Origin: Gordonia sp. SID5947
GTDB lineage: Bacteria; Actinomycetota; Actinomycetes; Mycobacteriales; Mycobacteriaceae
Assembly: GCF_009862785.1 (NCBI RefSeq)
Contig: NZ_WWHU01000001.1
Location: 124,001-188,000 of the forward strand
Reading direction: 5' to 3'
DNA: 64,000 bases
The notes below the pieces were generated by a model. That model worked only from the letters and a program-made list of their open reading frames with translations. It was not told the origin of the DNA and searched no databases. The position numbers and the translations under genes are program-made. This document shows positions 23,781 to 50,107 of this stretch, in pieces (within the stretch, counting starts at the first letter, position 1; each line of letters starts with the position of its first letter).

Positions 23781-25667
23781 GTGAGTCGTTGGCAGCTGAG
23801 ATCGTCGGTGCGGGCCACCCGTCGTCACGGCAGGTTGCCGGCGTTGCTGGGGGCCATCGTGCTGGTGGGCGCAGCGTGCTCGGCGAATCCGCCACCTCCG
23901 GTACGCGAGACGGCGCCGCCGGCAACCCCTGCCGAGTACCCGACCGAGAAGACCGTCTACATCGCGACCGATTCGGTGGGCGGCGGATTCAATCCGCACC
24001 TCGGGGCCGACCAGGGCACGGTCACCACGGCGATCGCCGCGATGACCCTGCCGAGCGCCTTCCGGCCGGTCGACACCGCAGACGGCGTCGTCTGGGAGCG
24101 TCAGGACGCGCTGATCACCTCGGCCGACGTCACCTCGACCGAACCGTTCACCGTCACCTACCACATCCAGACAGACGCGCAGTGGTCCGACGGTCTCCCG
24201 GTGACCGGTGACGACTTCTCCTATCTCTGGCAGCAGATGGCGCGCCAGCCCAACACGGTCGCGCCGGCAGGCTATCGCCTGATCGACTCCGTCCAGTCGC
24301 GGGCCGGCGGCAAGGAGGTGGCGGTGACCTTCGCGCGGCCCTACCCGGCGTGGCGCCAGCTCTTCACCGACCTCCTGCCGAGCCACGTGCTGCGCGGCGC
24401 GCCCGCCGGATTCCAGACCGGTATGGACAGCGGGAAGCCGGTCTCGGCGGGGCCGTACGCGGTCGTGTCCATCGATCAGACCCGTGACGAGGTACGGCTG
24501 GTCCGCAACGACCGGTATTGGATGAAGCCGCCCACGCTGGATCAGGTGGTGCTGCGCCGGGCGGGTACGGCATCGCAGATGGTCGCGACAGTGCGGTCGG
24601 GCGATTCGTCGATCGCCAATGTCAGCACCGGTCCCGCGACAACGGCGGAGCTCGCCGCCGTGCCGGGGCTACAGACGCAGCGCAACCCGACGTCGCGTGC
24701 GCTGTCGATCGGCGTCAACGCGCGCACCACCACGATGCGTTCGTTGCAGGTGCGGCGGGCGATCCTCGGCATGATCGATCCGGGACTGGTGTCGCTCGCC
24801 GGTGCCGGCGACGACATCGTGACGCCGTATGCCAACACGGTTTTCGCCCCGACGGACCGTGGCTACTTCCCTGTCGCCCGGCCTCGGCCGTCGGCGGGTG
24901 AGGTGACAGGTCTGCTGGCCGACGCCGGCTATCAGCGCGTGAAGGCCGACAGCGAGGCCCCCGCCGCCGGCACGTCGGAGACCACGGGGACGACCCCGCC
25001 CTTCCAGAGCGCCGCGTCCCCGAGTTCCGCGGAAGCATCTCCGCAGACCGAGCCGCTGCCGGACGGGATCGCGCCCTACCGCAAGGACGGCCAGGATCTC
25101 GCCGTGCGGGTCGGCGCGACCACCGGCGATCCACGGTCGACGTCCGCGGCGTCCAACATCGTCGATCAGCTACGCGGCCAGGGGGTGCGGGCGAGCGTGG
25201 TCACCCTGCCCAACAACGAGCTGTACGGCGTCGCCTTGACCAACGCTCGCGTGGATCTCGTCGTCGGCTGGACCGGACTCGGGGTCCCGCCGGCGGCATC
25301 ATTGGCATCGCAGGTCGACTGCGATCAGCCCAAGCCGGGCACCGCGCCATCCCTGTCGACACCACCGACTCCCACCAGTGTCGCCCCCGGACAGTTCGAC
25401 GCCGGTCCGGGCGACTCATTCGCCAGCAACATCTCCGGGGTGTGTGACCCGGCACTGATCGCGCTGGCACGCGGAGCGTTGTCGGCAGCCGACCCCATCC
25501 CGCAACTCACCGAGGCCGAGCCGCTGCTCGCCGCCCAGGCGGTCTATCTGCCGCTGTACCAGGACAGCACGTTCGTGGGGCGGACCGATCAGGTCAAGAA
25601 CGTGCCGCTGTCGGGCCCGATCCAGGTGGGGATCTACGGCGACGCGGTGTCCTGGGAGCTGTCGTGA
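23781..25667 (+). CDS. lpqW: LpqW-like substrate-binding lipoprotein
   Basis: A 628-residue lipoprotein (hydrophobic ALLGAIVLVGAAC, lipid Cys followed by SANPPPPV) of the peptide-type solute-binding family 5. Typical segments are TVYIATDSVGGGFNPHLGAD, VTYHIQTDAQWSDGLPVTG and RLVRNDRYWMKPPTLDQ. In M. tuberculosis the gene between typA and mshB is lpqW (Rv1166), which steers phosphatidylinositol mannosides toward lipomannan/LAM rather than importing peptides; synteny supports the same here. GTG 23781 is preferred (GGGGGTGG upstream); the frame is open from 23733. The stop overlaps the mshB start. Confidence 0.85.
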   Translation: MSRWQLRSSVRATRRHGRLPALLGAIVLVGAACSANPPPPVRETAPPATPAEYPTEKTVYIATDSVGGGFNPHLGADQGTVTTAIAAMTLPSAFRPVDTADGVVWERQDALITSADVTSTEPFTVTYHIQTDAQWSDGLPVTGDDFSYLWQQMARQPNTVAPAGYRLIDSVQSRAGGKEVAVTFARPYPAWRQLFTDLLPSHVLRGAPAGFQTGMDSGKPVSAGPYAVVSIDQTRDEVRLVRNDRYWMKPPTLDQVVLRRAGTASQMVATVRSGDSSIANVSTGPATTAELAAVPGLQTQRNPTSRALSIGVNARTTTMRSLQVRRAILGMIDPGLVSLAGAGDDIVTPYANTVFAPTDRGYFPVARPRPSAGEVTGLLADAGYQRVKADSEAPAAGTSETTGTTPPFQSAASPSSAEASPQTEPLPDGIAPYRKDGQDLAVRVGATTGDPRSTSAASNIVDQLRGQGVRASVVTLPNNELYGVALTNARVDLVVGWTGLGVPPAASLASQVDCDQPKPGTAPSLSTPPTPTSVAPGQFDAGPGDSFASNISGVCDPALIALARGALSAADPIPQLTEAEPLLAAQAVYLPLYQDSTFVGRTDQVKNVPLSGPIQVGIYGDAVSWELS

Positions 25668-26548
25668 CGGTACCCGTGGACCGGCGCCTGTTGCTGTTGC
25701 ACGCGCATCCCGACGACGAATCGATCATGACCGGCGGCACCATAGCCAGGTACCTCGCCGAGGGCGTCGACGTGCGCGTTCTGACATTCACCCTCGGTGA
25801 GGAGGGCGAGGTCATCGGTGACGAATGGTCGCAGTTGGCCGCCGATGGTGGCGCCGACCAGCTCGGCGGTTACCGCGTCCTCGAACTGACCCGTGCTCTC
25901 GCGGCGCTCACCCCGGCCGGTCGGGAACCGCTGCGTCCGCGGTTCCTCGGCGGCGCCGGGCGGTGGCGGGATTCGGGGATGGCCGGATCGCCGTCGGCCG
26001 ACCACCCGCGTGCCCTGGTCCGGGCGCCCTTCGACGACCTGGTGGCCACACTGGTTGCCGAGATCGTGGATTTTGCGCCGCAGGTGATCGTGACCTACGA
26101 CGACGCGGGCACCTACGGCCACCCGGACCACATGCTGGTTCATGCGACCACGGTCGCGGCGGTGCCGCGGGCCGTGGACCGTCTCGGTCGCGATCTGAAG
26201 GTGTACGAGTCGGTGACCGAGCGCTCGGCGCTCATGGCCGGTCTGACCGCGGCATCCGAGCGCGTCCCGGATGCGTGGCGCATGCCCGGCGACGGCGAGC
26301 TGCCGAGTTATCCGGACGAGGTGATCACCACGGAGATCGACGTCCGGCCCCAGCTGCACCTGAAGGCGGCAGCGCTGGCGGCGCACGCCACGCAGGTGAC
26401 GGTGGCCGGGTCCGGCACCGAGTACGCCCTGTCCAACAACATCCTGCAGCCCGTCCTCGATCGCGAGCATTTCGTCCGGACCGACCGCCGTGCGGGCGAG
26501 CTCATGGGCCCGGGCCGCGAGATCGATCTCTTCGCCGGGGTCGGCTGA
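25664..26548 (+). CDS. mshB: GlcNAc-Ins deacetylase MshB (mycothiol synthesis)
   Basis: A 294-residue zinc deacetylase that removes acetate from GlcNAc-inositol, the second dedicated step of mycothiol synthesis. The zinc and catalytic motif AHPDDE is at residues 14-19, the third ligand region is TYGHPDHMLVH, and LGEEGEVIGDEWSQL is typical of MshB rather than of Mca. Coupled to lpqW (GTGA overlap) and to the membrane protein gene that follows (one-base overlap), the order seen around Rv1170. Confidence 0.93.
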   Translation: MTVPVDRRLLLLHAHPDDESIMTGGTIARYLAEGVDVRVLTFTLGEEGEVIGDEWSQLAADGGADQLGGYRVLELTRALAALTPAGREPLRPRFLGGAGRWRDSGMAGSPSADHPRALVRAPFDDLVATLVAEIVDFAPQVIVTYDDAGTYGHPDHMLVHATTVAAVPRAVDRLGRDLKVYESVTERSALMAGLTAASERVPDAWRMPGDGELPSYPDEVITTEIDVRPQLHLKAAALAAHATQVTVAGSGTEYALSNNILQPVLDREHFVRTDRRAGELMGPGREIDLFAGVG

Positions 26549-26986: not shown

Positions 26987-26992
26987 TACAGT
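26987..26992 (+). promoter_or_regulatory. Leaderless -10 box TACAGT of the cofH-like/monooxygenase/cofG operon
   Basis: TACAGT ends six bases before ATG 26999. The GAGGGA next to the ATG is too close to serve as a ribosome site, so transcription from about 26999 would give a leaderless mRNA. This makes the three following genes a unit separable from mshB. Confidence 0.5.
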
Positions 26993-26998
26993 GAGGGA

Positions 26999-28123
26999 AT
27001 GGTCCTGCGGGAGTGGGCTCGGGACGCGCACGCCGCGGTGGACGAAGCCCGGGAAGCATTGCGTCACGTCGCCGACGATCCGGCGTCGATGACCGACGAC
27101 GAGTGGGTGGCCCTGCTCGGCGCGTCGGGTCCGGAGCTCGAGGCGCTGTGTGCGCTCGCCGACTCCGCGCGCCGTGAGGTGACCGATCCCGACACGGTGA
27201 CCTTTGTGGTCAACCGCAACCTCGACACCGCGGTGGTCTCTGCCGGACGGGACGACGTGCCGCCCGTGGAGGCATTGGTCGAAGAGGCGTGGCGCCTGGG
27301 GGCCACCGAGGTCTGCATGCAGGGGCCGGTCCCGGCCGGCGCCCCCGCCGACGAATATCTGCGTCTCATCGAACGGGTACACGGCGCCGCGCCGGATCTG
27401 CATCTGCACGCGTTCCGCCCGCCGGAGGTGCGTGACGCGGCGAACCGGATGGGCATCCCCATCCCTGATTTCCTGCGCGCCGCGCGCGACGCCGGCCTGG
27501 GCTCGGTGCCCGGTACGGCCGCGCAGATCCTCGACGACGAGGTCCGGTCTCTGCTCGCAGGCGGTCGCGCCCCGGCAGTGGGGGAGTGGATCGAGGTCAT
27601 CGAGGCGGCGCACGCGGTGGGACTGTTCTCCACCGCGACCATGCTCTACGGCCACGTCGAGACGCCGCGGCATCAGATCGCCCACCTTCGTCTGCTCGTC
27701 GAGATCCAAAGTCGTACCGGCGGTTTCAGCGAGCTGATCGTGATGCCGATGATCCCCGCCAATGCCGGACCTCATCTGGACGGGGTGGCGACCGCCACCG
27801 TGTCCGAACGTGAGACCCGCGCTGTCCATGCTGTCGCGCGGCTGCTGACGCTCGGTCACTTCGATCATCTCCAGGTGGCGTGGACGAAGTTGGACCGCGA
27901 CGTCGTCGAGCAGGTCTTGCGGGGTGGCGTCGACGACATCGGTGGACTGCTGCTCGACGGCGAGCTGATGCCCGAGGCGGGACAGGAGGCCGACCGTGTC
28001 CTCGATGTCGACGAACTCGTCGACATCGCTGCCTGCATCGGGCGGACGCCCCGCCAGCGCACCACCGCTCACGCCGATCCGCCCGCCGACCGCCTCGTGT
28101 CCATCCCGCAGGTGCGCCGATGA
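26999..28123 (+). CDS. CofH-like protein without the radical-SAM cysteine motif
   Basis: A 374-residue homologue of the CofH half of FO synthase (FbiC). Matches include DTVTFVVNRN, GATEVCMQG, HLHAFRPPEV, GTAAQILDDEV, YGHVETPRH and GRTPRQRTT. In FbiC, VNRN is followed by the loop with CX3CX2C that binds the [4Fe-4S] cluster; here it is followed by LDTAVVSAGRDDVPPVEAL, about 16 residues shorter and without Cys. No other frame restores it. The late CofH motif with AGSEHG is also altered (GELMPEAGQEAD). It cannot make the tyrosine adduct by the known mechanism. It is coupled to the monooxygenase (4-base overlap). Confidence 0.85.
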   Translation: MVLREWARDAHAAVDEAREALRHVADDPASMTDDEWVALLGASGPELEALCALADSARREVTDPDTVTFVVNRNLDTAVVSAGRDDVPPVEALVEEAWRLGATEVCMQGPVPAGAPADEYLRLIERVHGAAPDLHLHAFRPPEVRDAANRMGIPIPDFLRAARDAGLGSVPGTAAQILDDEVRSLLAGGRAPAVGEWIEVIEAAHAVGLFSTATMLYGHVETPRHQIAHLRLLVEIQSRTGGFSELIVMPMIPANAGPHLDGVATATVSERETRAVHAVARLLTLGHFDHLQVAWTKLDRDVVEQVLRGGVDDIGGLLLDGELMPEAGQEADRVLDVDELVDIAACIGRTPRQRTTAHADPPADRLVSIPQVRR

Positions 28124-29625
28124 CCGATGTCGGCGCCGGCACGCCCACGGACGTGGACGTCGCGATCGTGGGCGCCGGGTTTGCCGGGATCGGGATGGCG
28201 ACGCAGTTGGCGCGACGCGCAACCGAATCCTTCGTGGTCCTCGAACGTGCCGATGCGGTCGGTGGCACCTGGCGCGACAACACCTATCCCGGGATCGCCT
28301 GTGACATCCCGGCGCACCTGTACTCGTTCTCGTTCCGCCCGCCGTCGGACTGGGCGACGCTGTATCCGCGCGGAGCCGACATCCAGCAGTATCTGCAACG
28401 CACCGTGGACGAGGAGGGCCTCGCGTCACATATCCGACTCGGTTGCGAACTGCGGCAGGCGGTATGGGACCACGATGGTGCGGTCTGGTCGCTGGCCACC
28501 GAGGCGGGCCCGATCCGGGCACGGGTGCTGGTGATGGCGGTCGGCCGGCTGTCCGAACCGCACCTGCCGGACGTCGAGGGTCTCGAATCATTCACCGGCA
28601 CAATCGTGCACACCGCGTCCTGGCGTGATGACCTGCTCTCGGGCGGCGAGCGGATCGGTGTGGTCGGTACCGGTGCGTCGGCCGTCCAGGTGATCCCGCA
28701 CCTGGCCGAGATCGCCGAAGAACTCGTGGTGTTCTCGCGTACGCCCCCGTATGTGGTGCCGCGTGAGGACCGTCGGCTGTCGGACTCGGAACGGGCCGAG
28801 TTGCTCGTACCGGAGAACGCGCAGGCGCTGCGCGAACGGATGCTCCATGACGCGGACAAGGCATTCGCTCAGCGTCTCGGCCTCCGACCCGACATCGACG
28901 TCATCCGGGACCGTGCGCTGGGGCATCTGCACCGGCAGATCGAGCGCCCATCGTTGCGGGAAGCGTTAACGCCAGAGTATGAAATCGGTTGCAAGCGAAT
29001 ACTTTTGAGCGATGACTTCTATCCGGCATTAGAGCGCTCGAACGTGGTGTTCGAGTCGAGCGCGCTGGAATCGGTGTTCGAATGCAAGGCGCGTGCCGTC
29101 ACGGGCAACACCTACGACCTCGACGTCCTGGTGATGGCCACCGGATTCGAGGCGACCCGACCGCCTGCGGCCACGCGGATCCGCGGGCGCGGCGGCCGGA
29201 TACTCGCCGATCACTGGTCCGACGGCATGGTTTCCTATGCCTCGACAACGGTCGCCGGTTTCCCGAACATGTTCGTTCTCGATGGTCCGAACGCGGCCCT
29301 CGGTCACAACTCCGCGATCTACATGATCGAGACCCAGCTCGACTACGTGGTGGGTGCGCTGGACTTCCTGGCGGACAGTGGAACTCGTTCGCTCGAGGTG
29401 ACCGCGGACGCCGAGGCGGACTACACCAGGGAGATCGACGAGCGCAGCGCGTCGACTGTCTGGCTGACCGGCTGCGAGAGCTGGTATGTGGACTCGAGAA
29501 GCGGGCGGCTGACGCTGTTGTGGCCGGGTACCGCGGTGTCGTTCCGAGAACGCAACGGCACCTTCGACCCGCAGCCGTACCTGATCGAACCCCGATCCCA
29601 CGACGAAGGAGGTCTGGACCGATGA
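28120..29625 (+). CDS. Baeyer-Villiger-type flavin monooxygenase
   Basis: A 501-residue FAD- and NADPH-dependent class B monooxygenase. The FAD Rossmann motif is [13 protein letters not shown], the second is GTGASAVQV, and a near-match to the FxGxxxHxxxW fingerprint is [11 protein letters not shown] (followed by RD rather than P/D). [20 protein letters not shown] and [16 protein letters not shown] are typical of steroid/ketone monooxygenase relatives. It lies between the cofH-like and cofG genes with 4-base overlaps on both sides. A stretch at 28960-29036 has unusually low GC and two TTA codons. Substrate unknown; a role on a deazaflavin intermediate is speculative. Confidence 0.88.
29606..29611 (+). 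promoter_or_regulatory. Strong ribosome-binding site AGGAGG for cofG
   Basis: A consensus AGGAGG lies inside the last codons of the monooxygenase, 10 bases before ATG 29622. The start overlaps the previous stop (ATGA), so cofG is well placed for coupled and efficient re-initiation. Confidence 0.7.
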
Positions 29626-30866
29626 CCGACGCGGGAACGACGTCGACCGCCCTGGCGGCGGCGCGAACCGGAGAACCGATCGACCTGGCACAGACGACCG
29701 CATTGCTCGCGTGTTCCGGCGACGACCTGCTCGAGCTGCAGGACATCGCGGGCCGGATCCGTGACGCCGGCCTCGCGGAGGTCGGTCGCGACCATCAGAT
29801 CACCTACTCGCGCAAGGTGTTCATCCCGCTCACCCGGTTGTGTCGCGATCGCTGTCACTACTGCACCTTCGTCACCGTGCCCGGCAAGCTGGCCCGCGAG
29901 GGGCACGGGATGTACCTCGACCTCGACGAGGTCGTCGACATCGCCCGCAAGGGGGCCGAACTCGGTTGCAAGGAGGCGTTGTTCACGCTCGGCGACCGTC
30001 CCGAGGCCCGCTGGTCGCAGGCCGGCGAGTGGCTCGCGGCGCGCGGGTACACCTCGACGCTCGACTATGTGCGTGCCGCCGCGGTGGCGGTCCTCGAGGA
30101 CACCGGCCTGCTACCGCACCTGAATCCCGGAGTCATGAGCGTCGAGGAGATGCGCAGGCTACGACCGGTCGCGCCGTCGATGGGGATGATGCTGGAGACC
30201 ACGTCGCGCAGGTTGTTCACCGAGAAGGGTCAGCCGCACTACGGGAGTCCGGACAAGGATCCCCTCGTGCGGCTGCAGGTGCTCCGCGACGCAGGCGTCG
30301 CCCGGATCCCTTTCACCACCGGGATCCTGGTGGGGATCGGCGAAACCCTCACCGAGCGAGCCGAATCGATTCTGGCGATGGCCGACATCCACCGGACGCA
30401 CGGACACATCCAGGAAGTGATCGTGCAGAACTTCCGGGCGAAACCCGACACCGCGATGCGGGGCACACCCGACGCGGCGATGACCGAGTTCCTCGCTGCG
30501 GTCGCGGTCGCCAGGATCGTCCTGGGGCCGGGGATGCGTGTGCAGGCCCCGCCGAATCTGGTGTCGTCGGCGGAGTGTGCGGCCCTGATCGCGTCGGGTA
30601 TCGACGACTGGGGCGGGGTGTCGCCGCTGACCCCCGATCATGTGAACCCCGAGCGGCCGTGGCCGAATCTCGAGGTACTGGCGGACATCACCGCCGCCGC
30701 AGGCCACAAGCTGACCGAACGCATCACGGCTCAGCCGCCGTATGTTCTCGGTTCGGGCTGGATCGACCCGTCACTTGCCGGGCACGTCGCGGCTGTCGCC
30801 GATCCGACCACGGGTCTCGCCGCGGAGGTGACCCCGCGCGGCCGTCCCTGGCCCGCCGTCGCCTGA
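29622..30866 (+). CDS. cofG: FO synthase subunit CofG (radical SAM)
   Basis: A 414-residue radical-SAM enzyme of the CofG type, which closes the 5-deazaflavin ring to give FO, the F420 chromophore. The cluster motif is intact ([15 protein letters not shown]3CX2C). Close agreement with the N-terminal half of FbiC includes [38 protein letters not shown] and [20 protein letters not shown]. In M. tuberculosis the CofH half would follow in the same polypeptide; here the frame stops after GRPWPAVA. Third gene of the coupled trio, expressed with the CofH-like protein and the monooxygenase. Confidence 0.93.
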
Positions 30867-32741: not shown

Positions 32742-33863
32742 GTGAGTACGTCCGGATTCGTGACACGACGGCGCGTCAGCAGTCTTCTCCCCGACTTCCC
32801 CTGGGACACCATCGGAGACGCGCGCGCACGTGCTGCCGGGCATCCCGACGGCATCGTCGACCTCTCGGTCGGTACACCGGTGGACCCGGTCGACCCGGTC
32901 ATCCGCTCGGCACTGGCGTCGGCGTCGGAGTTCCCCGGTTACCCGACCACGGTCGGCATCCGGGAGTTACGCGACGCCGCGGTGGGTGCGATGAGCCGCC
33001 GCTACGGCGTCACCGGCCTCGACGAGTCCGCCGTGTTGCCGGTCGTCGGCACCAAGGAGGTCATCGCCGGGATCGTGTCGACACTCGGGATCGGTGCGGG
33101 TGAGGTCGTCGTGATCCCGGAAGTTGCCTATCCCACTTACGAAGTCGGTGCGATCCTGGCCGGTGCGACACCGGTGCGGGCGGACTCGACCGTCCAACTG
33201 GGCCCGACGTCGCCCGCGCTGATCTTTCTCAACTCGCCGTCGAATCCCACCGGCAAGGTGCTCGGTGTCGAGCACCTGCGCAAGATGGTCGCGTGGGCTC
33301 GCGAGCGCGGGGCGATCATCGTGTCCGACGAGTGCTATCTCGGGCTCGCATGGGACACCGAGGCCTACTCGATCCTCGATCCCCGGGTCAGCGACGGCGA
33401 CCACACCGGGCTGATCGCGGTGCACTCGCTGTCGAAGGTCTCCAATCTGGCGTCCTACCGGGCCGGTTTTCTCGCGGGCGACCGTGCGCTGATCGCCGAG
33501 TTGCTCGCGGTCCGCAAACACGCCGGCCTGATCGTGCCGTTTCCGATCCAGGGCGCGATGGTCGCGGCCCTCGACGACGACACCCATGTGCAGGCGCAGC
33601 GGGACCGCTATCGGGCGCGGCGGGACACGCTCGTCGCTGCCGTGCGGACAGCGGGATTCCGGATCGATCATTCCGAGGCAGGTCTCTACCTGTGGGCGAC
33701 CCGCGACGAGGACAGCAGGGTCACGCTGGACTGGCTCGCCGATCGGGGCATCCTCGTGGCGCCCGGCGATTTCTACGGTCCGGCAGGCAACCGGCACGTC
33801 CGGATGGCCTTGACCGCCACCGATGAACGCATCGACGCGGCCGCGGCGCGCTTGACGGCCTGA
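32742..33863 (+). CDS. dapC: N-succinyldiaminopimelate aminotransferase DapC
   Basis: A 373-residue class I PLP aminotransferase for the succinylase route to diaminopimelate and lysine. FLNSPSNPTGKVLG, SDECYLGLAWD and the PLP lysine motif HSLSKVSNLASYRAGFLAGD are present, with RMALTATDERIDAAAARL at the end. It starts nine bases after fdxC and is followed by a bidirectional terminator and convergent dapD; dapE follows within 3 kb, so the succinylase genes are clustered. Confidence 0.9.
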   Translation: MSTSGFVTRRRVSSLLPDFPWDTIGDARARAAGHPDGIVDLSVGTPVDPVDPVIRSALASASEFPGYPTTVGIRELRDAAVGAMSRRYGVTGLDESAVLPVVGTKEVIAGIVSTLGIGAGEVVVIPEVAYPTYEVGAILAGATPVRADSTVQLGPTSPALIFLNSPSNPTGKVLGVEHLRKMVAWARERGAIIVSDECYLGLAWDTEAYSILDPRVSDGDHTGLIAVHSLSKVSNLASYRAGFLAGDRALIAELLAVRKHAGLIVPFPIQGAMVAALDDDTHVQAQRDRYRARRDTLVAAVRTAGFRIDHSEAGLYLWATRDEDSRVTLDWLADRGILVAPGDFYGPAGNRHVRMALTATDERIDAAAARLTA

Positions 33864-47090: not shown

Positions 47091-47675
47091 TCAGGTGGGT
47101 TCGGTGGCCCGCAGGGCGGCGAGTCCGCGGTCGATGAGCACCGGGACGTCGACGGTGTCGGTGTCCGATGGCAGTCGGTCGATCGGCCACCAGGCGAGAT
47201 CGACCGACTCGTCACTGCGCACGATCACCGGCGGCCCACCGTTCTCGGTCGGTCGAGCCATCGCGGCGAAACGCACATCGAGATGTCGGGTGGGGACACC
47301 GAGCGAGCAGGTGATCGGGTGGGTGTGCAGGTGGACGGGCGCAGCCGTCAGCAGCAGGTCCGGCACGCCGGACTCCTCACGTGCCTCCCGGGCGGCGGCC
47401 CCGGCCAGCGTCTCGTCGGACTCCTCGCAATGACCCCCAAGCTGAATCCACTTGCCCACCCGCGGGTGCAGGGTCAGCAGCACATGCGTGAGCGTCGCAT
47501 CGAAGACGATCGCCGACCCGGTCAGGTGGCCCGGTTCGCTGCGGCGCAGGCACGCATCCGGGACAGCGTCGAGGAATGCGAGGTACGTGTGCCGCAAGGC
47601 ATCCTGCTCCGGGTCCGGTGCCTCCCACGAACGCAGGGACGTGACGGCCGACGCATGGAGCGAGGCCGTGCTCAC
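47091..47675 (-). CDS. NUDIX hydrolase
   Basis: A 194-residue NUDIX protein with an N-terminal helical extension (residues 1-50) and the box [20 protein letters not shown] followed by [17 protein letters not shown] and [10 protein letters not shown] suggest a subgroup distinct from MutT. Substrate unknown. The GTG start overlaps the fbiB stop (GTGA), which places it third in the fbiA-fbiB operon and hints at a nucleotide or F420-precursor clean-up role. Confidence 0.82.
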
Positions 47676-49030
47676 CGCTCGAGCACCAATCCCTCGGTGG
47701 ACGCGGGTGGCCGCAGCCCGGCTTCCTCCGCCGGTCGCCCGATCGCGACCGCGCCGAGCGGCTCCCAGTTCGCCTCGAGGTCGAGGGTCTCGCGGACGAT
47801 GTCGGGGGCGAAGATGGTCGACCCGATCCAGCAGCTCCCGACGCCGCGCACCGACAGAGACACCAGCAGCGACGACACGGCGCCGCCCGCCGCGACTGTG
47901 AACATCGTGTGCTCGGCGGCCGTTCGCCGCGCGTCGGGATAGTCGTGGGCGCCGTCGGGGACCAGGAACGGGATCACCAATTCGGGTGCGTCATACAGGA
48001 TCTGACCGCGCTGCACGCGCTTTCGGATCGACTCCGCGGACTTGTCGTCACCCTCCAGGTCGCGGCGCCAGGCCGCAGCCATCGCGTCGAGCAGTCGGAT
48101 CCGTCGTTCGTCAGAACGAACCCAGACGAACCGCACCGGATGGGTGTGGTGGGGTGCGGGCGCGGTGAGGGCCTCGGCGAAGGCCGCCGACATCACCTCG
48201 GGTTCGATGGCGCCGGGCGCGAAGCTGCGCACCGACCGGCGCGTCCGAACCGCCTCGCGACGCCCCTGTTCGATGGCTTCGGCGGTGCCGAGCCGAAACA
48301 GGTCCTCCGATGCCGGCCGGACGAGATCGGTGGCGCCGGAACCGTCGTCGACCGGGCTTAGGCCGCGCACCACGGCGATCGGTACCCCACCGAGTTTGCC
48401 TTTCACCAGGTCTGCGGCGGCGGCGATCTCATCGGCGACGGCGATGTCGGTGACCACGAGCGGGTTCCCGTAGGCATCGACCGAGCCCTCGTAGGGGTGC
48501 GAGACCCGGATGCCTGCCGCACCGATGGCGACGTCGGTCTGGCCGTTTCGCCAGGCGCGGCCCATCGTGTCGGTGACGATCACCGCGACGTCGATGCCTG
48601 CCACCTCACGGATGCGCGTACGGAGCGCGGCCGCGCTCGCATCGGGATCGGCCGGGAGCAGCGCCAGACGGTCGGTGGCGATGTTCGACCCGTCCACCCC
48701 GGCCGCCGCCTGTACGATGCCGAGGCGGTTCTCGGTGATGAGCGTGCGGTTCCTGCGTGCCAGGACGCGCACGGACTCGTCATCGACAAGCTTGCGGCGC
48801 AGCGCATCTCGTTCTTCTGGATCGCTGGGGGCGTCGACCATCCGGTTCTCCACCTTGGAGAAGATCTTGCTGGTCGCCACCACGACGTCGTCGTCGGCAA
48901 GCCAGGGCGCGGCGGCGAGGAGTTCGCTCGCGATGTCGCTCTCCGGCGTGAATTCACCCAGACCGCGGACCGCACGGATTTCCAGGCCGCCGACGGAGCC
49001 GTGGTCGCCTTCGGCCGGACCGGTGGTCAA
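47672..49030 (-). CDS. fbiB: F420:gamma-glutamyl ligase/dehydro-F420 reductase FbiB
   Basis: A 452-residue two-domain enzyme. Residues 1 to about 245 are the CofE-type ligase ([53 protein letters not shown]) that adds glutamates to F420-0. Residues about 255-452 are an FMN nitroreductase-like domain ([10 protein letters not shown] at the start, [15 protein letters not shown] near the end) that reduces dehydro-F420-0. This full-length form is typical of actinobacteria (Rv3262). It overlaps fbiA by four bases. Confidence 0.94.
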
Positions 49031-50094
49031 CTCACGCCCCCTTCGGTGGCACCGGCATTGCGATCAGGAGTGGCAACCCCGACCAGCGCGCATGCGTCAC
49101 GGACCATCTGTGCGGTGACCGCCGGATCGGTCATCAGCAGGGGAGCGGACCCGATCGCGATGCCGTCGACCCTCGCCTGGTCACCTTCGGCGATCAACCA
49201 TCCGTCGAGGATCCCGTTGCCGCTGCGGGCGCCGTAATGGGCCGCGATGGCCTCGGCCGAGGTCTCGACACCGATCACCGACAGGCACTCGTCGGCCATC
49301 CCGCGCAGGGGCCGGTTGTCGATCACCGGCGAGATGCCCACGACGGGGGCCGAGGTGGTCCGTAGCGCGCTCCGGACGCCGGGCACGCTGACGATGGCGC
49401 CGATGCTGACCACCGGGTTGCTGGGCGCCAGCAGCACTATGTCGGCGTCGGTGATCGCCTCGGCGACGCCCGGTGCGGTACGGGTGTCGTCGGAGCCCAC
49501 CTGCGCGAAACCGAACGTCGGGATCTTCGCCCGATGTCGCACCCACCACTCTTGGAAGTGGATGGCGACCCGCTCGCCGTCGTCGCCGTCGGGCTTGGCG
49601 ACCACCACGTGGGTCTCATGTCGATCGTCCGTTGCGGGGATGAGGCGGACACCGGGCTGCCATCGCCGGCACAGGGCCGCGGTCACATCGGACAGCCGGT
49701 AACCGGCGTCGAGCATCTGGGTCCGGATGAGATGTGTGGCGAGATCGCGATCACCGAGGCCGAACCAGTCCGGGTCGGCGCCGTAGGCCGCGAGCTCCTC
49801 CTTGGCATGCCATGTCTCGCCCACCCGACCCCACCCGCGCTCGCGGTCGATGCCGCCGCCCAGGGTGTACATACAGGTGTCGAGGTCGGGACAGATCCGG
49901 ACACCGTGCATCCACGCGTCGTCGCCGACGTTGACGACCGCGGTGACCTCGTGATCCGCGCGGTGCGGTGTCGTCGACTCACCGCCCGGGTCCGGAGCGC
50001 CCGGACCGGGAAACGGCGTGGGACCGAGCAATTCGCGGACGCCGGACAGGAAGCGGGCGCCACCGACGCCACCGACGAGAACCGTCACTTTCAC
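49027..50094 (-). CDS. fbiA: Phosphoenolpyruvate/lactyl transferase FbiA (CofD)
   Basis: A 355-residue transferase that attaches the activated phosphoenolpyruvyl (or phospholactyl) group to [22 protein letters not shown] is the dinucleotide-binding start; [20 protein letters not shown] binds [15 protein letters not shown] and [19 protein letters not shown] complete the family pattern. GTG 50094 is chosen over GTG 50103 because a TAGAGT box lies exactly seven bases before it and the N-terminus then equals FbiA. Divergent from whiB2, as in M. tuberculosis. Confidence 0.93.
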
Positions 50095-50101
50095 CTCGTT
50101 C

Positions 50102-50107
50102 ACTCTA
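50102..50107 (-). promoter_or_regulatory. Leaderless -10 box TAGAGT of fbiA
   Basis: TAGAGT on the minus strand ends seven bases before GTG 50094. It fixes the likely start of the fbiA-fbiB-NUDIX operon. Confidence 0.5.

Follow-up and report, generated by a model that had tools for sequence, protein, structure and literature searches.

The closest described systems are FbiC, a single-chain FO synthase, and the corresponding pair of CofG and CofH. According to PMC8498797, all studied F420 producers synthesize the deazaflavin FO, the precursor of F420, by one universal mechanism, which depends on two radical S-adenosylmethionine (SAM) enzymes. In the standard scheme given there, radical cleavage of tyrosine by CofH yields a p-hydroxybenzyl radical that adds to 5-amino-6-ribitylaminouracil (5-A-RU), after which CofG closes the ring. 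Formerly FO was believed to require 4-hydroxyphenylpyruvate, until tyrosine was shown, as recounted in an excerpt of PMC12855090. Here we describe a locus of Gordonia sp. SID5947 (genome of 5.10 Mb, completeness 99.4%) that departs from this scheme. It lies in a 64,000-nucleotide stretch of contig NZ_WWHU01000001.1 (positions 124,001 to 188,000), which as a whole we call the window, and consists of three co-directional genes, encoding a CofH-like protein, a flavin monooxygenase of the Baeyer-Villiger (BVMO) type and CofG. The CofH-like protein lacks the motif CX3CX2C of radical SAM enzymes. This is the key fact, and it was absent from a preliminary description of the same DNA. Judged from sequence comparisons, this clusterless CofH and the BVMO probably replace the radical CofH step of FO synthesis, and we class the trio as a new variant of FO synthase. 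What was observed is the loss of the cluster motif, a strict linkage of this CofH to the BVMO, its exclusion with FbiC in Gordonia, and the retention of the remaining F420 pathway.

The trio and its two diagnostic sites have the following window positions:

26999-28123, forward strand: cofH-like gene (clusterless CofH, P0001, 374 aa), a CofH homologue under the CofH cut-off and without CX3CX2C
27212-27262, forward strand: residues 72-88 of clusterless CofH, NRN followed by the position of the canonical CX3CX2C loop (alignment with Gordonia FbiC, column comparison)
28120-29625, forward strand: BVMO-type flavin monooxygenase (P0002), 501 aa including the ATG-encoded residue (P0002 omits this residue and has 500 aa), with type I BVMOs as best solved relatives
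29622-30866, forward strand: cofG (P0003, 414 aa), TIGR03550 score of 459.2 bits against a cut-off of 213.35
29841-29864, forward strand: iron-sulfur motif CRDRCHYC of CofG, read in the translation

Where canonical CofH carries NRNINFTNICYTGCRFCAF, the clusterless family has NRN and a short unrelated stretch. The motif CX3CX2C is missing in 35/35 Gordonia relatives as well as in all 120 homologues among the matches listed (of 2101), the window protein counted. Against TIGR03551 (CofH) the window protein reaches 291.3 bits, under the cut-off of 374.1. Since two defining features of CofH fail, the protein is not to be filed as CofH, though it appears to work in CofH's place. The full radical SAM-type barrel (CofH/MqnE fold) is present. 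Only one cysteine, C106, is invariant in an alignment of 16 sequences, which is too few for a 4Fe-4S cluster held by cysteines. Other residues have become newly fixed, namely S140R, D221E, E321G and R325P (each at 1.00) and N146D (0.99). Public records label clusterless proteins as 'FO synthase', 'CofG' or 'radical SAM protein', such that the missing cluster is hidden. The ratio of non-synonymous to synonymous substitution (dN/dS) of clusterless cofH is 0.10-0.23 and all three trio genes are under purifying selection; they are thus not the decayed remnants that would have undermined the preliminary description.

The distribution inside the genus was obtained from 59 Gordonia genomes, the window's included. 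A CofH match over the cut-off was found in 23 of them, within a long FbiC frame, while 36 contain clusterless CofH alone and no CofH over the cut-off. Clusterless CofH and FbiC are mutually exclusive across this sample, and the trio thus recurs well beyond a single assembly. For the window's own genome, searches with the protein and with the CofH model returned only weak matches besides, the one listed sitting in CofG. On these searches a second complete fbiC or cofH, which had been proposed as a check, was rejected; the clusterless gene is the only CofH that they found. The order clusterless CofH-BVMO-CofG is conserved in 35/35 trio genomes besides the window's. An orthologue of the BVMO (at least 69% identity) occurs in 36/36 trio genomes and in 0/23 FbiC genomes; four of the latter hold a paralogue at 41-42% identity. 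The count of 36 includes a piece from genome G056 (locus L127), in which the BVMO is interrupted by a frameshift, being either a sequencing error or a real loss. FbiA and FGD are over the cut-off in 59/59 genomes, and FbiD was found in all and is over the cut-off in 58. Their occurrence is alike in trio and FbiC species, so that trio species retain the genes for finishing and using F420.

Outside the Gordonia sample the linkage to the BVMO persists. The family search comprised 251 genomes, from which 16 loci outside the genus code were fetched. Fourteen of these are clusterless, with the BVMO adjoining in 14/14, and two are canonical FbiC without BVMO. A single genus code covers nine of the 14, four of them corresponding to Williamsia records; three more agree in sequence with Gordonia jinhuaensis, Williamsia sterculiae and Rhodococcus sp. 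HNM0569. CofG and FbiA are present in all 14 genomes. At two loci (G616 and G593) CofG and clusterless CofH form one frame with the BVMO downstream. With nine loci from the class added, there are 11 loci at which CofG and clusterless CofH are fused as in FbiC, and the fused frames carry a single CX3CX2C, that of CofG. When the CofH half of one fused protein was used as query, 120 of 1130 matches were listed: exactly one CX3CX2C was present in 111, none in nine (all of at most 617 aa), and a CofH-type motif in 0. Aeromicrobium, Terrabacter, Nocardioides alkalitolerans, Salinibacterium, Leifsonia and Microbacterium are among the names represented, the proteins being annotated as FO synthase or CofG.

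Searching 393 genomes of the class for the BVMO gave 29 matches. Clusterless CofH adjoins 11 of them (nine outside Gordonia) and not the other 18, for which reason 42-50% similarity to the BVMO does not by itself indicate a clusterless locus. Two of the 18 are paralogues in the window's own genome (48-50% identity, about 10 kb apart at G000:C1:3769970-3771442 and 3779921-3781363, loci L262 and L260); no CofH was found in their 1.5-kb flanks. With the clusterless profile, 266/393 class genomes were matched, five candidates being scored per genome. Among the 30 loci read, two are clusterless (both Gordonia) and 28 canonical. A scan of named genomes found at least 80 loci; the 80 listed are all canonical FbiC, and 0/80 had a P0002-like BVMO (1e-30) in the flanks examined. 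Some side observations were made in the class search. One genome (G124) gave two CofH-type matches, the one read being clusterless. Many genomes of family codes f18, f19, f13 and f15 contain between two and four matches of the CofH/FbiC type, which points to FbiC paralogues, and small genomes of family code f32 (~2-3 Mb) gave many low-scoring CofH-type matches (E ~1e-82 to 1e-93).

The iron-sulfur motif of CofG is kept as CRD[RK]CHYC in 35/35 Gordonia relatives. For P0002 the best solved relatives are the type I BVMOs TmCHMO (7v8o) and PAMO (1w4x), and two homologues are annotated as 4-hydroxyacetophenone monooxygenase. Type I BVMOs are recognized by the fingerprint FxGxxxHxxxW(P/D). Its part FxGxxxHxxxW was found in 35/35 Gordonia relatives, in 13/14 further loci (L226 being the one without) and in 117/120 homologues listed; the residue following the Trp is R in the window BVMO. 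The nucleotide-binding motifs GAGFAG and GTGASA are present, and an alignment with TmCHMO was made. D61, K291 and R292 are invariant in 121/121 sequences, the Arg and the Asp being positions that we take to have catalytic roles. A structure model of the BVMO was of poor quality (pLDDT 66.7) and was set aside.

Further features of the window concern the start signal, the neighbours and the later F420 steps:

26987-26992, forward strand: TACAGT, resembling a -10 box for a leaderless start, beginning 12 nt 5' of the cofH-like ATG
29606-29612, forward strand: Shine-Dalgarno-like AAGGAGG 5' of cofG, read in the sequence
25664-26548, forward strand: mshB, locus neighbour (TIGR03445 over cut-off)
32742-33863, forward strand: dapC, downstream neighbour (TIGR03539 over cut-off)
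47672-49030, reverse strand: fbiB, later F420 step (PRK13294 and TIGR01916 over cut-off)
49027-50103, reverse strand: fbiA (cofD), later F420 step (TIGR01819 over cut-off)

The preliminary description had proposed three genes joined by 4-base overlaps, a leaderless -10 box of their own, and a gene order opposite to that of FbiC at the FbiC position. The sequence confirms the genes and the overlaps, both junctions being of the ATGA type. The promoter observation is sound as well, since TAnnnT stands at -12/-13 of the first ATG in 35/35 Gordonia relatives but in 2.6% of shuffles. A sigma-70 -35/-10 scan gave no match, which is compatible with a leaderless start but no proof of it; a terminator scan was negative as well. 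With the CofH-like gene first and CofG last, the order is indeed reversed relative to FbiC, and the trio and Gordonia FbiC occupy the same locus: mshB flanks 35/35 trio loci and 22/23 Gordonia FbiC loci, dapC 25/35 and 22/23, respectively. Translation at matched levels, which had been suggested from the overlaps, turned out to be a weak inference, because the ATGA overlap is not general among Gordonia relatives (17/35 at the first and 16/35 at the second junction, with starts chosen by script).

The same locus had been interpreted as split and re-ordered halves of FbiC. This holds for CofG, which by sequence appears native to the lineage; the CofH-like gene seems instead to come from a separate clusterless lineage tied to the BVMO. 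In a CofH tree of 70 rows the 40 clusterless rows lie on one side of a branch with a Shimodaira-Hasegawa-like approximate likelihood ratio test (SH-aLRT) support of 100. In a CofG tree of 47 rows the trio CofG falls together with CofG from Williamsia and from Gordonia FbiC, while the distant fused clusterless proteins have their CofG elsewhere in the tree. Both trees come from quick searches and were not bootstrapped, and the program gave a warning about long branches. The clusterless CofH-BVMO pair of Williamsia is not at the old locus, whose neighbours are shared by 0/9. CofG remained at the old locus: seven of the nine Williamsia CofG loci were read with wide flanks, and mshB is in the flank of 7/8 CofG loci read (the seven of Williamsia and one of Rhodococcus). 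At four Williamsia loci (L277-L280) an intact CofG opens an FbiC frame that continues with a strongly diverged CofH half. These CofH halves have only 30% identity to the query, have lost 29/69 positions common to canonical and clusterless CofH, and group in the CofH tree with Gordonia FbiC, their branch having a length of 1.57. Among the four Williamsia FbiC (five pairs) dN/dS is 0.06-0.10 for the CofG half and 0.16-0.35 for the CofH half. The diverged halves may be decaying or gaining another role. Read most simply, this history is the acquisition of a clusterless CofH-BVMO module by a lineage that held on to its native CofG.

Regarding the reaction, the pair would form the C-C bond that CofH forms and supply CofG. 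Formally, the adduct of CofH is what the reaction of a p-quinone methide with C5 of 5-A-RU would yield, without any overall oxidation or reduction. General chemistry offers a tentative scheme on this basis, possible but rather doubtful in its details. The monooxygenase would oxygenate a tyrosine-derived carbonyl compound, e.g. 4-hydroxyphenylpyruvate or 4-hydroxyphenylacetaldehyde, to a 4-hydroxybenzyl ester, which would readily shed its acyl group to give the p-quinone methide. The clusterless barrel would position 5-A-RU such that its nucleophilic C5 captures the methide, and this redox-neutral alkylation would yield the adduct normally received by CofG, which would still perform its normal radical ring closure. 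O2 and NADPH would stand in for SAM and a reduced cluster. The wider picture is likewise speculative and may well prove wrong: an O2-dependent, SAM-independent first step of F420 synthesis, in which the barrel has become a non-radical C-alkylating enzyme, and which arose once and spread across actinobacteria as a two-gene module, displacing the radical CofH half and keeping the native CofG.

Several points weigh against a replacement of the CofH step by clusterless CofH and the BVMO. The losses of clusterless CofH extend beyond the cluster loop, with 58/161 canonical-conserved columns gone. Residues that were retained are not significantly enriched at the barrel mouth or strand ends (p = 0.15), which weakens the argument for the same pocket. 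The diverged Williamsia CofH halves may not be dead, because they keep CX3CX2C (CEPGCRYC) and an open frame at the dN/dS given above. One of the 28 canonical class loci (L184) lies near a distant BVMO-like protein, encoded on the other strand and with 30-41% identity to P0002. A measurement of F420 was not found in the literature for any trio species or strain. Finally, the searches covered relatives of CofH only, and an unrelated sequence would escape them. This leaves room for FO being made by CofG and an unrecognised CofH analogue encoded elsewhere, with another role for clusterless CofH and the BVMO. We consider such an arrangement quite unlikely, given that clusterless CofH sits at the FbiC locus in Gordonia, excludes FbiC across the 59 genomes and is fused to CofG in FbiC order at the 11 loci.

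The preliminary description had inferred a three-protein pathway for a deazaflavin other than ordinary FO. The pathway itself has good support, being conserved in the 36 Gordonia genomes, and Williamsia and further genera hold related loci. For another product, made or modified by a monooxygenase that puts oxygen into precursor or product, there is no support so far. The constant company of the monooxygenase and the newly fixed residues, by which the substrate could differ, would fit such a product, but FbiA, FGD and FbiD are as common in trio as in FbiC species (59/59, 59/59 and 58/59 over the cut-off), and the grouping of the trio CofG with that of Gordonia FbiC suggests the same substrate. 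We therefore regard a different deazaflavin as unlikely and ordinary FO as the likelier product. That CofG performs both radical steps, with clusterless CofH as its docking scaffold and the BVMO as an accessory, would agree with the CofG motif being kept in every trio read and with the fusions. It is nevertheless very improbable: an accessory role does not explain a BVMO orthologue in every trio genome with three invariant residues, and the trio CofG is of the same lineage as that of FbiC. A decaying pathway in lineages losing F420 would account for the lost motif and the one frameshifted BVMO, but is hardly credible for a gene that has the low dN/dS seen here, is spread over several families and is kept along with FbiA and FGD in 36/36 trio genomes. 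Decay after F420 loss was rejected on account of the purifying selection and the retention of FbiA, FGD and FbiD.

The probable replacement of the radical CofH step by clusterless CofH and the BVMO, for which the genomic support is good, suggests that a step long regarded as universal has been exchanged. Many soil actinobacteria appear to make F420 with a first enzyme that has no iron-sulfur radical centre and with an oxygen-using flavin enzyme. If this is true, many aerobic actinobacteria, some annotated simply as FO synthase or CofG carriers, use a different first FO step, and a radical SAM enzyme has been re-used, minus its cluster, together with an oxygenase. Production of FO and F420 in ordinary hosts could then become easier, one oxygen-sensitive step being removed. 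Annotation by similarity to CofH or FbiC can conceal changed chemistry. With trio and FbiC species within one genus, the question is directly testable.

A search of open-access papers in PubMed Central found neither a clusterless CofH nor a monooxygenase acting in FO synthesis described. Compared with the known systems, the trio shares with FbiC and CofG plus CofH the locus in Gordonia, a CofG with 72-74% identity to the corresponding half of five Gordonia FbiC, and a homologous CofH barrel with 42-47% identity to the 23 Gordonia FbiC, which in distant relatives is even fused in FbiC order. It differs from them by a CofH under the cut-off that has no CX3CX2C, by the added flavin monooxygenase, and by separate genes in reversed order in Gordonia. 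While FbiC joins CofG and CofH in a single chain that has a cluster motif in either half, the window genes are separate and the fused relatives hold one motif only. MqnE, the aminofutalosine synthase (6xi9, 6xig), is a radical SAM enzyme, unlike the window protein with its missing cluster motif. With the type I BVMOs TmCHMO and PAMO the window BVMO has in common the FxGxxxHxxxW signature, the GGTW region and the Lys-Arg and Asp positions. It differs from them in the R after the fingerprint Trp and in having a CofH-like protein as genomic partner, and its Baeyer-Villiger activity is a prediction.

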